NCBI GenBank assembly: GCA_017472665.1
Contig: JAFUOS010000026.1
Coordinates: forward strand, 1 to 64,000
Source: Tyzzerella sp.
Lineage (GTDB): Bacteria; Bacillota; Clostridia; Lachnospirales; Lachnospiraceae
DNA length: 64,000 nucleotides
Direction: 5' to 3'
Below, in pieces: positions 25,246 to 46,170 of this stretch (the stretch's first letter is position 1; every line of letters begins with the position of its first letter). Both the position numbers and the translations under genes were made by a program. The notes beneath the pieces were generated by a model that was given only the letters and a program-made list of their open reading frames with translations, had not been told where the DNA came from and made no database searches.

Positions 25246-26655
25246 ATGAAAAAAGGACAAGTATACGAAGGCTTAATTGAGAAAGTGGAATTTCCAAATA
25301 AAGGAATCGTGTCTGTAGAAGGCGAAGAGAAAAAAGTGATTGTAAAAAATGGGATTTCAGGACAGAAAATTAAGTTCGTGATCAATAAAATGAGAAAAGG
25401 AAAAGCAGAGGGGCGTCTTTTAGAGGTGCTGGAAAAGTCACCATTGGAGCAGCGCGACCCAGTATGCAGTATTTTCCCTGACTGTGGCGGCTGTATGTAT
25501 CAGACGATGCCATACGAGGAGCAGATGAAGATGAAAGGGCAGCAGGTAAAAGAGATTTTGGATGCTGCAATCGATGGGGATTATGGTTTCGAAGGCGTAA
25601 AGGCAAGTCCCAAAGAATTTGCTTACCGTAACAAGATGGAATTCTCGTTCGGAGATGAATATAAGGATGGACCACTTTCATTGGGGCTTCATAAAAAAGG
25701 AAGTACATATGATGTGCTGACTGCGTCGGATTGCAAATTGGTGCATGAAGATATGACGAAGATTTTAAACTGCGTGCTAGAATATTTCAAAGAGAAAAAT
25801 GTAAGTTATTACAAAAAGATGCAGCATGTAGGATATTTGCGTCATTTGCTGCTGAGACGCGGTGATGTGACTGGCGAAATCCTTGTGAATTTGGTTACTA
25901 CTACGCAGGAAGAGTATGACTTACAGCCACTTGTGGAAGCATTATTGGCATTGCAATTAGAAGGGAAGATTGTAGGAATTCTTCATATTTTGAACGACTC
26001 TTTATCCGATGTGGTACAGAGCGACGGAACGAGAATCTTGTACGGACAGGATTTCTTCTATGAGAAATTGCTAGGAATGGAATTTAAGATTACGCCATTT
26101 TCGTTCTTCCAGCCAAACTCACGTGCAGCGGAAGTGCTGTATAGTACTGTGCGAGAATATATTGGCGACATTGATAATATGACGGTATACGATTTGTTTA
26201 GCGGTACTGGTACGATTGGGCAAGTACTTGCGCCAGTTGCGAAAGAAGTTATCGGTGTGGAGATTATCGAAGAAGCGGTGGAGGCTGCAAAGGAAAATGC
26301 GGCGCATAATGGACTTGACAATTGCAAATTCATCGCGGGCGATGTGTTTAAGGTGTTGGATGAGATTGAAGAGAAGCCTGATGTGATTGTGCTCGACCCA
26401 CCAAGAGATGGGATTCATCCGAAGGCACTTCCGAAGATTTTGGATTATGGTGTGGAGCGAATTGTTTATATTTCTTGTAAGGTGACGAGCCTTGCGAGGG
26501 ATTTAGAGATGATTCAGGCGAGAGGGTATAAAGTGGTGAAAGCGGTTTGTATAGACCAATTTTGCCAAGGGGTTCATATTGAGACAGTGATTTTGCTACA
26601 AAAAGGCGGTAATCCGTCGCATCAGCAGATAGCAGAGATGCTGAATCAACAATAA
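25246..26655 (+). CDS. 23S rRNA (uracil-5-)-methyltransferase, RumA/RlmD/RlmCD type
   Basis: A 469-residue SAM-dependent tRNA/rRNA uracil C5 methyltransferase. It has an N-terminal TRAM RNA-binding domain (about 1-62), [4Fe-4S] ligands Cys74, Cys80, Cys83 and Cys163, the SAM site YDLFSGTGTIGQ (about 310-321), DPPRDG (about 385) and the catalytic nucleophile Cys411 in YISCK. Gram-positive homologues modify U747 and/or U1939 of 23S rRNA; the exact target is not set by sequence alone. AGGAGG precedes the ATG by 11 bases. Confidence 0.92.
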   Translation: MKKGQVYEGLIEKVEFPNKGIVSVEGEEKKVIVKNGISGQKIKFVINKMRKGKAEGRLLEVLEKSPLEQRDPVCSIFPDCGGCMYQTMPYEEQMKMKGQQVKEILDAAIDGDYGFEGVKASPKEFAYRNKMEFSFGDEYKDGPLSLGLHKKGSTYDVLTASDCKLVHEDMTKILNCVLEYFKEKNVSYYKKMQHVGYLRHLLLRRGDVTGEILVNLVTTTQEEYDLQPLVEALLALQLEGKIVGILHILNDSLSDVVQSDGTRILYGQDFFYEKLLGMEFKITPFSFFQPNSRAAEVLYSTVREYIGDIDNMTVYDLFSGTGTIGQVLAPVAKEVIGVEIIEEAVEAAKENAAHNGLDNCKFIAGDVFKVLDEIEEKPDVIVLDPPRDGIHPKALPKILDYGVERIVYISCKVTSLARDLEMIQARGYKVVKAVCIDQFCQGVHIETVILLQKGGNPSHQQIAEMLNQQ

Positions 26656-26720: not shown

Positions 26721-26767
26721 AAATAAGCTGACTCTCATTGAACAATGCGAAAGTCAGCTTATTTTTT
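26721..26767. terminator. bidirectional terminator overlapping the Abi gene's stop
   Basis: AATAAGCTGACT pairs with AGTCAGCTTATT, ending in TTTTTT. It lies between the convergent methyltransferase and Abi genes. Confidence 0.8.
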
Positions 26768-27691
26768 ATAGCGAGTAATTTTATTCCAGTTTTTCGGGAA
26801 CCCCATTTCCTTTAGCAGTTGGTCTTCTGTAAGATGAGGGCATTTATTGAGAACATCTTTAATTAGAGATGCTAAATTTCTACGAAATGTTTTAAATTCC
26901 TCGTTAGAAATTAAGTATCTGAGTGAAATCACAACAGAGAACAAATCTTTTTTACCATTCTGATATAATCCCTTCTTGCAAGGAATGCCAAGTTTATTAT
27001 GTAATAGGGTGTCCGGAATCATATCGGTTGTTCGGAAATCAAATAAGCGTTCTCCGTGAGCACAGACATTTCGGCATTTAGCAATGATTGTAATAAATTG
27101 GTGTAATTGCTTCTCTGTATATTGTGGATATGCCTTACTAACTTTTGCTTGAATATCATTTGGCATATATTGATAGAATGCAGAGGTTTGTCCCATTGTC
27201 ATTGCATTTGTCGCTACCCATAACGGAACGTTATGATATTTGCGAGCGTGATGGGCAATGTAACGATAATGACTTGGAAGGGCAATTGTCTGTTTTAAAG
27301 AGTTAATGAGGCGGTTAACTGGTTTCTGATGATTGCTATAATCAAAATTTTGAGGATTTAAGTATTCGGTTTGATCCTCACCATATTTTTCAGAGAAGTA
27401 GTAAGAAATCATTGATTTCAAATGACGTTCCACTTGTAAGATATATTTTAGAAATAGACTACGGAGTTGTTCGTCAAAATGATAGAATGCGACTATTTCA
27501 TCAAAGGTAACGCCGTATTTATATTTCTTGGATGCTGGGTGTAAAAATAATCCTTTGTATCCACCGATTAAAGAGTAGTAACTGATTTCTTCCAGCGTTT
27601 TTCGAGCGAAGTCAACATCAGGAATATTTAGACCCTTCTCAGCTTGCAGTTTATGTAGTTGTTGGTCGTATGTCATAAATTTCTGTGCCAT
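26759..27691 (-). CDS. Abi family (AbiD/AbiF, Abi_2) HEPN protein
   Basis: A 310-residue cytoplasmic protein of the Abi_2 family (PF07751), known from phage abortive-infection systems. The N-terminus (FMTYDQQLHKLQAEKGLNI) and ISYYSLIGGYK match the family. The C-terminal region has the HEPN ribonuclease motif RX4H as R207-NVCA-H212, preceded by a helix QFITIIAKC. HEPN proteins with this motif usually cut RNA. Translation starts at 27691, after GAGG. Between its promoter and its start codon lies a compact two-hairpin RNA with a terminator (27720-27790), the arrangement expected of a toxin held in check by an ncRNA. That AbiF proteins act with ncRNA is from memory of recent work; action here is inference. 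Confidence 0.85.
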   Translation of the reverse strand: MAQKFMTYDQQLHKLQAEKGLNIPDVDFARKTLEEISYYSLIGGYKGLFLHPASKKYKYGVTFDEIVAFYHFDEQLRSLFLKYILQVERHLKSMISYYFSEKYGEDQTEYLNPQNFDYSNHQKPVNRLINSLKQTIALPSHYRYIAHHARKYHNVPLWVATNAMTMGQTSAFYQYMPNDIQAKVSKAYPQYTEKQLHQFITIIAKCRNVCAHGERLFDFRTTDMIPDTLLHNKLGIPCKKGLYQNGKKDLFSVVISLRYLISNEEFKTFRRNLASLIKDVLNKCPHLTEDQLLKEMGFPKNWNKITRYKK

Positions 27692-27719
27692 TTAGAGACC
27701 TCGCTTTCTTTGGTTATAG

Positions 27720-27790
27720 GGTAAAAAAAGGAGCCCACGCATGGACTCCTCCGGCTGTGGGCCCCTCGAGCATCCACAGCACAACCACTA
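27720..27790 (-). ncRNA. short structured RNA upstream of the Abi/HEPN gene
   Basis: Reading the minus strand from a consensus promoter, the RNA starts near 27790. Hairpin 1 is GCUGUGG/CCACAGC (27780-27774 with 27760-27754) around a 13-base GC-rich loop. Hairpin 2 is AGGAGUCCA/UGGGCUCCU (27750-27729, loop UGCG) followed by a run of U, an intrinsic terminator. Total length is about 70 nt. The toxin start codon is 30 bases beyond the terminator. It may be a guide/antitoxin RNA or a leader attenuator; sequence alone does not separate these. Confidence 0.7.
27723..27750 (-). terminator. terminator of the Abi-associated RNA
   Basis: A 9-bp stem with a four-base loop and seven T on the minus strand, placed between promoter and Abi start codon. 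Confidence 0.8.
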
Positions 27791-27795
27791 AAGAT

Positions 27796-27824
27796 AATAT
27801 ACATTATGAACCGATAGAAGTCAA
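27796..27824 (-). promoter_or_regulatory. promoter of the Abi-associated RNA
   Basis: On the minus strand: TTGACT (27824-27819), exactly 17 bases, TATATT (27801-27796). Confidence 0.75.
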
Positions 27825-27979
27825 ATGAAATTTTCAAAAGTGGCAATGTTATTATATACGTTGGTATAAACAAATATACATCTTTTTTGTCTCTTCACCC
27901 CATGTTGAGACTATAGCATTGTTGCAGAAAAAGTAAAATAAAGTTGCAGAAAGAAGGTAGAAGAAGTGGGTTATACCAT
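27825..27979. other. AT-rich spacer between the Abi RNA and the GNAT remnant
   Basis: No open frame or clear structure is seen. With the adjacent features it makes up the 485-base gap between the Abi and fucO genes. Confidence 0.4.
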
Positions 27980-28084
27980 GAAAGAATTGCAGGAGAGTCA
28001 AATTGATATAGTCGTAGATATATGGCAGAGCACACCGTGCATGAAAAGGGAAAGACTATGCTCATACATACAGTGTATTCAGTA
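27980..28084 (+). pseudogene. N-terminal remnant of a GNAT acetyltransferase
   Basis: A 34-codon frame starting MKELQESQIDIVVDIW resembles the first 16 residues of small GNAT N-acetyltransferases; the rest of the frame (STPCMKRERLCSYIQ) does not fit and the domain is missing. Identification is by resemblance of this short stretch only. It suggests an internal deletion in the gap next to the Abi locus. Confidence 0.4.
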
Positions 28085-44314: not shown

Positions 44315-46170
44315 GTTTGCGCGCCATGGGCGCGCTCTAACGGGTGAAAGTCCCGAATACGCCTAGGCAACGAGGAAGTATATAGCTGAACAACAAGGGT
44401 GTCCGTCGCGAGGTGGAATCTGAAGGAAGTTGTAGGCAAACCCTTGGTCCGACGGACAGGAACCACATATAAGGCTCGGAAATGCGGATAAGTCTGCAAA
44501 AGAAGATGAAGTCCAAAAGTTGCTGGAAGTACGGGTAAATGTGGCGGATAGATGAGGGGAAAGAGCGTGCACCTTAAGCGTGGAGGTCTCACAAGTGGTT
44601 TCATTAGCCATAGTAACAACGAATTGTGAGAAGTCAGCAGAAGCCATAGTAGCGAAGAAGTCTCTGTAATGGAGATGGAGTGAAGGGCTGAACAATCAAT
44701 AAGTTGAAGTAGAGTCTCGTATTGCAGAAGAAACAAACATCTGCCGTAACCAATCGGGTAAAGGGTGGTTAAATCTAGCGAGACAGAAAGGAAACAACGC
44801 ATGAACACAAGTAATCTAATGGAGCAGATACTATCGGAAGAAAATTTTCTGAAAGCATATCAGCAAGTCGTAAAGAATAAAGGTGCAGAGGGAGTGGACG
44901 GAATGGAGTACACGGAACTCAAGGCACACCTTGAGCAAAACGGCGAACTCATCAAGGAGCAGTTGAGGACAAGAAAATACAAGCCTCAACCAGTACGTAG
45001 GGTAGAAATACCAAAACCAGATGGCGGTGTCAGAAATCTAGGAGTACCAACGGTAACAGACAGATTCATCCAACAAGCCATTGCACAAGTTTTAACCCCT
45101 ATCTACGAAGAACAATTCCATGACCATAGTTATGGATTTCGTCCTAACAGATGTGCACAGCAAGCCATACTGAAAGCATTAGATATGATGAATGACGGAT
45201 ATGATTGGATTGTGGACATAGACTTGGCGAAGTTCTTTGATACAGTAAATCATGACAAGTTAATGACACTGGTTGGACGAACAATCAAAGATGGAGACGT
45301 AATCTCTATTATTAGGAAGTTCCTAGTTAGTGGAATCATGATTGACAATGAGTATGAAGAATCAATAGTGGGAACACCACAAGGAGGAAATCTATCTCCA
45401 CTTTTAGCGAACATCATGCTCAATGAACTGGACAAAGAAATGGAACAAAGAGGATTGAACTTTGTGAGATATGCAGATGATTGCATCATCATGGTGGGAA
45501 GTGAAATGTCAGCAAGGCGAGTAATGAGGAATCTCACAAGATATATTGAAGAGAAACTGGGATTGAAAGTGAACATGACAAAAAGTAAGATTGACAGACC
45601 AAGAGGACTAAAATACTTAGGTTTTGGATTTTACTTTGACATGCATGCGAGACAGTACAAAGCAAAGCCACACGCAAAATCAGTAGCGAAGTTCAAAGCA
45701 AAAATGAAAAAGTTAACCTGCCGAAGTTGGGGCGTAAGTAATTACTACAAGATACAGAAACTCAACGAACTAATCAGAGGATGGATAAACTACTTCAAGA
45801 TTGGAAGTATGAAAAAGTTGTGCAGAGAACTTGACGGAAATATCCGATACCGATTGCGAATGTGCATATGGAAACAATGGAAAACCCCGCAGAACAGAGC
45901 GAAAAACTTAATGAAGTTAGGAGTTCCAAAGTGGGCAGCCAAAAGAACTTCATATGCAAAGGGGTATGCACGAGTGTGCAGAGGCTCAGATGTAAGCCAA
46001 GCCATAAGTAATAAGAGATTAGCCGCATACGGACTAATCTCTATGTTAGATTACTACACAGAAAAGTGTGTTACTTGTTAAGTTGATTGAACCGCCGTGT
46101 ACCGAACGGTACGCACGGTGGTGTGAGAGGTCGAAATTTCTTAACTATGAGAAATTTCTCCTACTCGATT
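44315..46170 (+). mobile_element. group II intron, bacterial class C (IIC) type
   Basis: About 1.86 kb, inserted after the NatAB terminator. The 5' end is GTTTGCGCGCC. The 3' end contains a domain V-like hairpin (ACCGCCGTG ... CACGGTGGT around 46089-46123) and a domain VI-like GAAATTTCT/AGAAATTTC hairpin, ending CTACTCGAT. It encodes a maturase without an endonuclease domain. Insertion behind an intrinsic terminator is the habit of IIC introns. Boundaries are good to a few bases. It appears complete. Confidence 0.82.
44801..46081 (+). CDS. ltrA: group II intron reverse transcriptase/maturase (LtrA-like)
   Basis: A 426-residue intron-encoded protein: RT domain with EIPKPDGGVRNLGVPTVTDRFIQQAI (RT2), YGFRPNRCAQQA, TPQGGNLSPLLANIMLNELD (RT4) and the catalytic YADD in FVRYADDCIIM (about 228-238), then a maturase/thumb domain (WINYFKIGSMKKLCRELDGNIR) and a short basic DNA-binding tail. 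There is no HNH endonuclease, as in class C. The ATG at 44801 has AAAGGAAAC upstream. It splices its own intron and copies it into new sites. Confidence 0.95.
   Translation: MNTSNLMEQILSEENFLKAYQQVVKNKGAEGVDGMEYTELKAHLEQNGELIKEQLRTRKYKPQPVRRVEIPKPDGGVRNLGVPTVTDRFIQQAIAQVLTPIYEEQFHDHSYGFRPNRCAQQAILKALDMMNDGYDWIVDIDLAKFFDTVNHDKLMTLVGRTIKDGDVISIIRKFLVSGIMIDNEYEESIVGTPQGGNLSPLLANIMLNELDKEMEQRGLNFVRYADDCIIMVGSEMSARRVMRNLTRYIEEKLGLKVNMTKSKIDRPRGLKYLGFGFYFDMHARQYKAKPHAKSVAKFKAKMKKLTCRSWGVSNYYKIQKLNELIRGWINYFKIGSMKKLCRELDGNIRYRLRMCIWKQWKTPQNRAKNLMKLGVPKWAAKRTSYAKGYARVCRGSDVSQAISNKRLAAYGLISMLDYYTEKCVTC

Follow-up and report, generated by a model that had tools for sequence, protein, structure and literature searches.

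The AbiF protein of C. difficile (AbiFCd) is reported to be toxic, the residues of its RX4H motif being required for toxicity, and to be bound by the RNA RCd22, which neutralises it both in cis, through termination, and in trans (PMC12373285). Likewise, PbAbiF is described in a review as an RNase held by its non-coding RNA, with one RNA per monomer (PMC12737573), and HEPN domains of the AbiD/F type are reported to group with those of Cas13an (PMC12165695). Phage-borne mimicry of an antitoxin RNA is documented for ToxIN in the form of pseudo-ToxI (PMC3475682; PMC5086642), and an abiF RNA in cyanophage S-CREM1 has already been published (PMC9964418). The locus of Tyzzerella sp. analysed here joins these AbiF-RNA systems with an RNA family that is new relative to Rfam 15. 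It lies in a stretch of 64,000 nucleotides, hereafter the window, and is very probably an AbiF-type, type III-like toxin-antitoxin system with an RNA antitoxin.

The elements of the locus are collected in Table 1. They follow the order promoter, RNA, terminator, toxin within one transcription unit. The original prediction had placed a promoter with a 17-base spacing, an RNA of about 70 nt with two hairpins and a terminator in front of the gene. Sequence reading confirmed the promoter, and the predicted RNA measures about 67 nt, its 5' end near 27789 being inferred from the promoter position, with hairpin 2 serving both as the terminator and as the second half of the RNA. The minimum free energy of the window RNA was -30.7 kcal/mol. 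The fold z-score was -2.83 for a 67-nt stretch (1 of 200 shuffles equally good) and -2.29 for a 72-nt stretch (4 of 200). The window contains a single RNA unit and no tandem array of the ToxI kind. The same gene order was observed in most toxin-linked loci, with exceptions such as L063, where the RNA is downstream.

Table 1. Features of the locus, with positions counted from the first base of the window
Feature	Position	Strand	Details
Sigma-70 type promoter	27796..27824	minus	-35 TTGACT 27824-27819, -10 TATATT 27801-27796, spacing 17
Small RNA, antitoxin candidate	27723..27789	minus	predicted; AGUGG...UUUUUUU, about 67 nt
Hairpin 1	27754..27780	minus	7-bp stem 27780-27774 / 27760-27754, 13-base loop 27773-27761
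Hairpin 2 with U-tract (intrinsic terminator)	27723..27749	minus	27749-27742 pairs with 27737-27730, loop UGCG, U-tract 27729-27723
Abi_2 / AbiF-AbiD type HEPN gene	26759..27691	minus	310 aa; R207-N-V-C-A-H212
Likely gene terminator	26724..26760	minus	sequence reading; inverted repeat AAGCTGACT ... AGTCAGCTT then T-rich DNA at the stop codon

In G123, a genome of the same genus, both the protein and the RNA were absent at the thresholds used. Its alignment with the window locus was confined to the preceding gene (window 25246-26655), and no clean empty site was seen in the stretch compared. Elsewhere in the window, at 44402-44688 on the plus strand, adjacent Rfam matches to group II intron families (D1D4-3, 139.6 bits; D1D4-1, 56.5 bits) probably mark a group II intron.

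The window protein matched the Pfam family Abi_2 (PF07751) with an E-value of 5.7e-47 and 160.8 bits (cut-off 25.6), and the PADLOC AbiD model with an E-value of 2.3e-67. By sequence search it also matched PDB 8vz6 over residues 11-230 (E 1e-12), R207 and H212 of its RNVCAH motif aligning with an R and an H of that protein. Residues R207, N208, A211 and H212 were invariant in 34 aligned proteins. The reading of the gene as Abi_2 with an RX4H motif at R207/H212 was thus confirmed by the Pfam match, the 8vz6 alignment and the invariance.

We modelled the RNA family with a covariance model, R1, which includes the window sequence and matches the window at 27722-27790 with 86.9 bits. In an alignment of 33 RNAs, stem 1 was paired in 231 of 231 cells and showed both-sided changes at 6 of its 7 pairs, while hairpin 2 was paired in 92.0% of cells, and 6 of its 8 pairs had changed on both sides. 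Over both helices, 95.8% of cells were paired as against 77.4% in shuffles, none of 500 being as high. The covariation score was 0.642, higher than in any of the 500 shuffles (0.293 for shuffled alignments), and it was at most 0.21 when the helix partners were slid. Eight columns were invariant in the 33 RNAs, four of them (C21, G24, G26 and G29) in the 13-base loop of hairpin 1; few parts of the RNA are as well conserved as this loop. The alignment of relatives called for by the original prediction thus revealed both stem covariation and loop conservation. An additional helix inside the loop (columns 21-23 with 27-29) was rejected, being paired in 81.8% of cells against 79.5% in shuffles, 56 of 500 as high.

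At gathering thresholds, Rfam 15 assigned no family to the window RNA, nor to those of 20 relatives. RF03085, the abiF RNA, had no match in window positions 27500-28000 at an E-value of 10, and membership of that family was rejected, no match at gathering being found in the window or in the 20 relatives. Weak Rfam matches in the stretch around the window RNA were attributed to chance: Atu_C8 reached 23.9 bits for a gathering threshold of 50, and the two remaining matches fell far short of their own thresholds. The window RNA represents a family, conserved and covarying, that Rfam 15 does not contain. The proposed connection with published work on AbiF non-coding RNAs and Cas13 was right in kind, but it does not extend to a match with the Rfam abiF RNA.

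Loop conservation also bears on the suggestion that the loop of hairpin 1 contacts a target RNA, as a guide directing the HEPN RNase in the manner of Cas13. The loop is partly single-stranded by prediction, and the grouping of AbiD/F-type HEPN domains with those of Cas13an (PMC12165695) would suit such a role, but the loop is conserved across the clade and across solitary RNAs instead of varying as a spacer would. No spacer-like variable stretch was seen in the loop or in either hairpin, whether in toxin-linked or in solitary RNAs. At L045 (247-383), the sole locus among 79 sources with two tandem RNA units before the gene, the copies repeat the same unit. Because the loop is conserved and no CRISPR-like variable spacer beside a constant repeat is present, the guide RNA was rejected as very improbable. 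An antitoxin RNA remains our preferred reading.

The RNA is linked to one clade of toxins. Relatives of the window protein were found at 34 loci when genome contigs were scanned, and within the bacterial family 106 of 397 genomes contained a protein match at an E-value of 0.001. Upstream DNA was read at 40 loci, including the window's own, and the RNA motif was found within 260 nt of the gene in 38. Two of these, L010 and L017, carry a divergent form, which in L017 was not detected by R1. At the two loci without a motif on first reading, R1 later located the RNA 239 nt upstream (L057) and downstream of the gene (L063). The 397 family genomes contain 42 full-length Abi_2 matches with at least 37% identity, full length meaning 780 nt or more; the one in G122 has an internal stop. 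In 40 of the 42 the RNA lies upstream, at 17-239 nt from the matched start and at no more than 41 nt in 36 of the 40. The exceptions are G190:C35, where the RNA is downstream, and G084:C18. Below 37% identity, none of 49 full-length matches (44 and 5 more) had the RNA upstream. The hairpins are thus kept with Abi homologues within one clade, and this linkage, together with the covariation score, places the observation above chance.

On a 94-protein tree, a single label change accounted for all 48 RNA carriers, compared with a mean of 31.6 after shuffling. Support for the fork of the RNA-carrier clade was modest (84/60), and a single change sufficed in 82% of bootstrap trees. Carriers of RF03085 were on other branches than R1 carriers (one of them, L066, having its RNA downstream of the gene), the label 'neither' denoting proteins with neither RNA at the thresholds used. 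Promoter-like sequence, defined as a match to 9 or more of the 12 promoter consensus bases, was present at the expected place in 33 of 35 toxin-linked RNAs as against 3.9% of shuffled upstream regions. In the class as a whole, R1 matched 20 of 391 genomes at an E-value of 1e-5, 8 of the 20 belonging to the same family, and a plasmid search with one RNA of the family gave no match. Second RNA copies after the gene were seen in L039 (2462-2531) and L175 (1321-1390). Abi_2 genes of other branches (L202-L206, L209, L210, L212 and L173) have other hairpin leaders by eye. Neither RF03085 at an E-value of 0.5 nor R1 at 5 was detected in the leaders of the first eight, and L173, searched with R1, had no match. 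Further antitoxin RNA families may exist for these branches.

Loss of the two partners is one-sided. In the family, 88 RNA matches score above 40 bits. A full-length Abi_2 match follows 41 of them and a partial or broken one follows 13; the other 34 have no Abi_2 match after them. These 34 comprise 2 at contig ends, 2 downstream of a full-length gene, 4 with toxin remnants beside the RNA (L120, L122 by eye, L124 and L129) and 26 with no trace of the toxin at the sensitivity used. In the reverse direction, only 2 of the 42 full-length matches are without an upstream RNA, one of them having it downstream. Read most simply, these counts mean that loci often lose the toxin and keep the RNA, and rarely do the reverse, as expected for an antitoxin. 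In 40 solitary RNAs (26 from the family, 8 from the class search and 6 viral), stem 1 was kept in 98.1% of cells, these RNAs having been found by R1 itself, which favours paired sequences. Promoter-like sequence was found in 19 of 37 solitary RNAs (33 bacterial and 4 viral) against 3.4% of shuffles. The other 18 had fewer than 9 of the 12 promoter bases, and some solitary RNAs are therefore probably relics.

These counts weigh against a role as a leader acting in cis only, that is, attenuator or riboswitch-like control of read-through into Abi_2 with no action in trans. Such a leader would account for the terminator between promoter and gene, and termination is reported as part of the RCd22 mechanism (PMC12373285), but it would leave unexplained the 26 traceless RNAs and a conserved loop and covarying stem that go beyond the needs of a terminator. 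Moreover, RNAs inside phage tRNA arrays, described below, have no U-tract and no Abi_2 in their records, and so cannot be attenuators of Abi_2 there. We consider a purely cis-acting leader improbable, and retain the RNA antitoxin.

Several solitary copies have other neighbours. The window's own genome has a second RNA of 83.5 bits (L113 2175-2243, equal to G000:C9:35174-35242), one of the 26 traceless ones, with no Abi_2 detected downstream and the next long ORF on the opposite strand. The same genome has two further R1 matches of low score (24.5 and 21.3 bits). In four genomes (L118, L126, L156 and L165) the RNA precedes an ORF for a zeta-toxin-like kinase, mostly with a small ORF between. 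The L118 protein matched Zeta_toxin with an E-value of 5e-6, and the four RNAs have 5-7 of the 12 promoter bases and no recognisable promoter. In L128 and L116 the RNA is linked with nucleotidyltransferase/HEPN genes. In L121, L180 and L188, the latter two on viral contigs, a solitary RNA precedes a Phd-like ORF, the L121 protein matching PhdYeFM at an E-value of 2.5e-5, below the Pfam cut-off; two antidotes perhaps stand side by side at these three loci. One idea is that the RNA serves as leader of other toxin-antitoxin operons in the copies linked to zeta, nucleotidyltransferase/HEPN and Phd. Finally, one genome (G467) has two near-identical solitary RNAs, L162 and L171, which share upstream DNA and whose surroundings, judged by eye, resemble those of a phage, with a terminase small subunit-like gene and HNH.

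The antitoxin reading of the window locus is well supported because conservation, covariation, linkage to one clade, one-sided decay and the published kin RCd22 (PMC12373285) and PbAbiF (PMC12737573) agree with it. By analogy with these systems, we infer transcription, RNA-protein binding, RNase activity, neutralisation and an antiphage role for the window locus. One promoter would yield a short RNA ending at hairpin 2, and occasional read-through past this hairpin would produce the toxin mRNA. The RNA, through hairpin 1 with its conserved loop and through hairpin 2, would bind the HEPN RNase and hold it inactive. Were the RNA lost or titrated away, as might happen when a phage infects, the freed RNase would arrest growth.

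We also found the RNA family in phages. A letter pattern retrieved 16 viral contigs, of which R1 confirmed 14. Three further patterns gave none in viral contigs, and another gave 5, all within the 16. The 14 contigs comprise 6 with the RNA and Abi_2 and 8 with the RNA only. In the latter, whose records may be fragments, there was one R1 match each and no Abi_2 match; one of these RNAs (L186, 35.5 bits) is without hairpin 2. Searches of phage records by RNA letters gave 1, 3 and 0 records, and in three phage records the RNA stands with Abi_2, one being cut by the record end.

In 5 of the 8 solitary viral records, representing two distinct sequences, the RNA is inside a tRNA array. Four of these loci have eight tRNAs in the order Asn, Ala, Asp, Tyr, Glu or His, Thr, Met, RNA, Arg, and the fifth, whose record begins there, has the last three tRNAs. 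The RNA fills the slot between tRNA-Met and tRNA-Arg exactly. It begins with AGUG right after the encoded CCA of tRNA-Met, that is, with the 5' end predicted for the native antitoxin, and reaches tRNA-Arg, its second hairpin being retained and its U-tract gone. Both versions of the array RNA have a fold z-score of -3.8. The CCA-AGTG pattern was found in 9 contigs, 5 being the known tRNA-array phages and the other 4 having neither an R1 match nor a tRNA. Maturation of the tRNAs would free the RNA, its native 5' end arising after the CCA of tRNA-Met and its 3' end through RNase P at tRNA-Arg. A second slot of 72-81 nt, between Ala and Asp (L190 2946-3017 and L193 5104-5184), is occupied by sequences that vary from one phage to the other, with 28 of 65 aligned bases identical, and that had no Rfam match at an E-value of 0.05; these are perhaps other small RNAs.

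The YonO-like protein of one array phage has kin in 37 phage records, 23 of Bacillus and 6 of Enterocloster phages. Five of the six best matches are not from Bacillus, and the four best are from Enterocloster bolteae phages (34-35% identical). Enterocloster is a member of the Lachnospiraceae, and this kinship gives a faint hint that the host of the array phage may be related to the window organism. The RNA was absent from the 4 Enterocloster phage records searched and from one uncultured relative.

The other AbiF-associated RNA is present in phages as well. A search with the RF03085 consensus gave 74 phage records at an E-value of 10, 52 of them matching over at least 80% of the query. Six of the 40 matches listed were checked (Acinetobacter phage Acj61, Mycobacterium phage Thibault, Aeromonas phages T7-Ah and PZL-Ah8, Synechococcus phage S-SZBM1 and Salicola phage CGphi29). 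All six contain an RF03085 match of 50-58 bits (cut-off 37), and no Abi_2 match was obtained in any of the six whole records. In S-SZBM1 the RNA is flanked by tRNA-Pro and, 4 nt further on, by the annotated tRNA-Ala. Literature searches in open-licence papers retrieved no paper joining phage abiF RNAs with counter-defence against AbiF.

The toxin-less viral copies suggest that phages may use antidote copies to survive AbiF defence, and mimicry of the antidote is their likely meaning. We regard as evenly balanced the broader proposal that several unrelated phage groups carry two families of AbiF antitoxin RNAs as antidotes, some placed inside tRNA arrays from which the RNA is cut out by tRNA maturation. 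The rival to this phage extension, and to it only, is that the solitary phage RNAs are neutral relics, left over from Abi_2 modules that have been lost. We find this doubtful, although toxin remnants beside some bacterial RNAs and solitary copies without promoters agree with it, viral contigs also bear complete RNA-toxin pairs, and no host with a cognate AbiF was linked to the solitary phages. Between two diverged array phages, however, the RNA is identical at 63 of 69 positions (91%), as against 62-63% for tRNA-Met, tRNA-Arg and tRNA-Thr, 68% for tRNA-Ala and 54-75% for three ORFs; yet tRNA-Asp (93.5%) and tRNA-Asn (100%) are conserved as much as the RNA. The solitary state of RF03085 in 6 of 6 phage records checked is a further argument against neutral relics.

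This analysis adds a candidate family of RNA antitoxins, outside Rfam 15, to the HEPN toxins thought to be ancestral to Cas13. The family is large enough to map the part of the RNA that is predicted to bind the protein. Its solitary phage copies, some hidden in tRNA arrays, turn the idea of RNA antidotes against AbiF into one that can be tested. If the antidote proposal is true, phage tRNA arrays are stores of anti-defence RNAs and not of tRNAs alone.

To our knowledge, the ToxN toxin is not a HEPN protein. The type III ToxIN system resembles the window locus in its RNA antitoxin and in the known principle of phage mimicry; it differs in that ToxI is a repeat array, and the passages concerned make no mention of tRNA arrays (PMC3475682; PMC5086642). 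The RNA anti-CRISPRs (Racrs) likewise occur singly in viruses as copies of an RNA from host defence, but are described as mimics of CRISPR repeats and not of an AbiF antitoxin (PMC10651486). The abiF sRNA of S-CREM1, a lytic phage with many tRNAs, is a member of RF03085; it belongs to another RNA family than that of the window, and neither an antidote role nor placement in a tRNA array is proposed in the relevant passages (PMC9964418). RF03085 itself is, like the window family, a small RNA adjoining Abi_2 genes, with a stem of variable sequence and a conserved loop, but its consensus and fold are different and its carriers are on other branches of the tree. PbAbiF (PDB 8vz6) is a HEPN toxin that matches the window protein at a distance in sequence, the comparison covering the proteins. 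The closest parallel is AbiF of the C. difficile prophage phi027 with RCd22. As reported, RCd22 has two RF03085 motifs where the window RNA is one unit of a family unmatched by RF03085, and the two loci share an Abi_2 HEPN toxin and the same succession of a SigA-type promoter, a structured RNA, a terminator and the toxin gene (PMC12373285).
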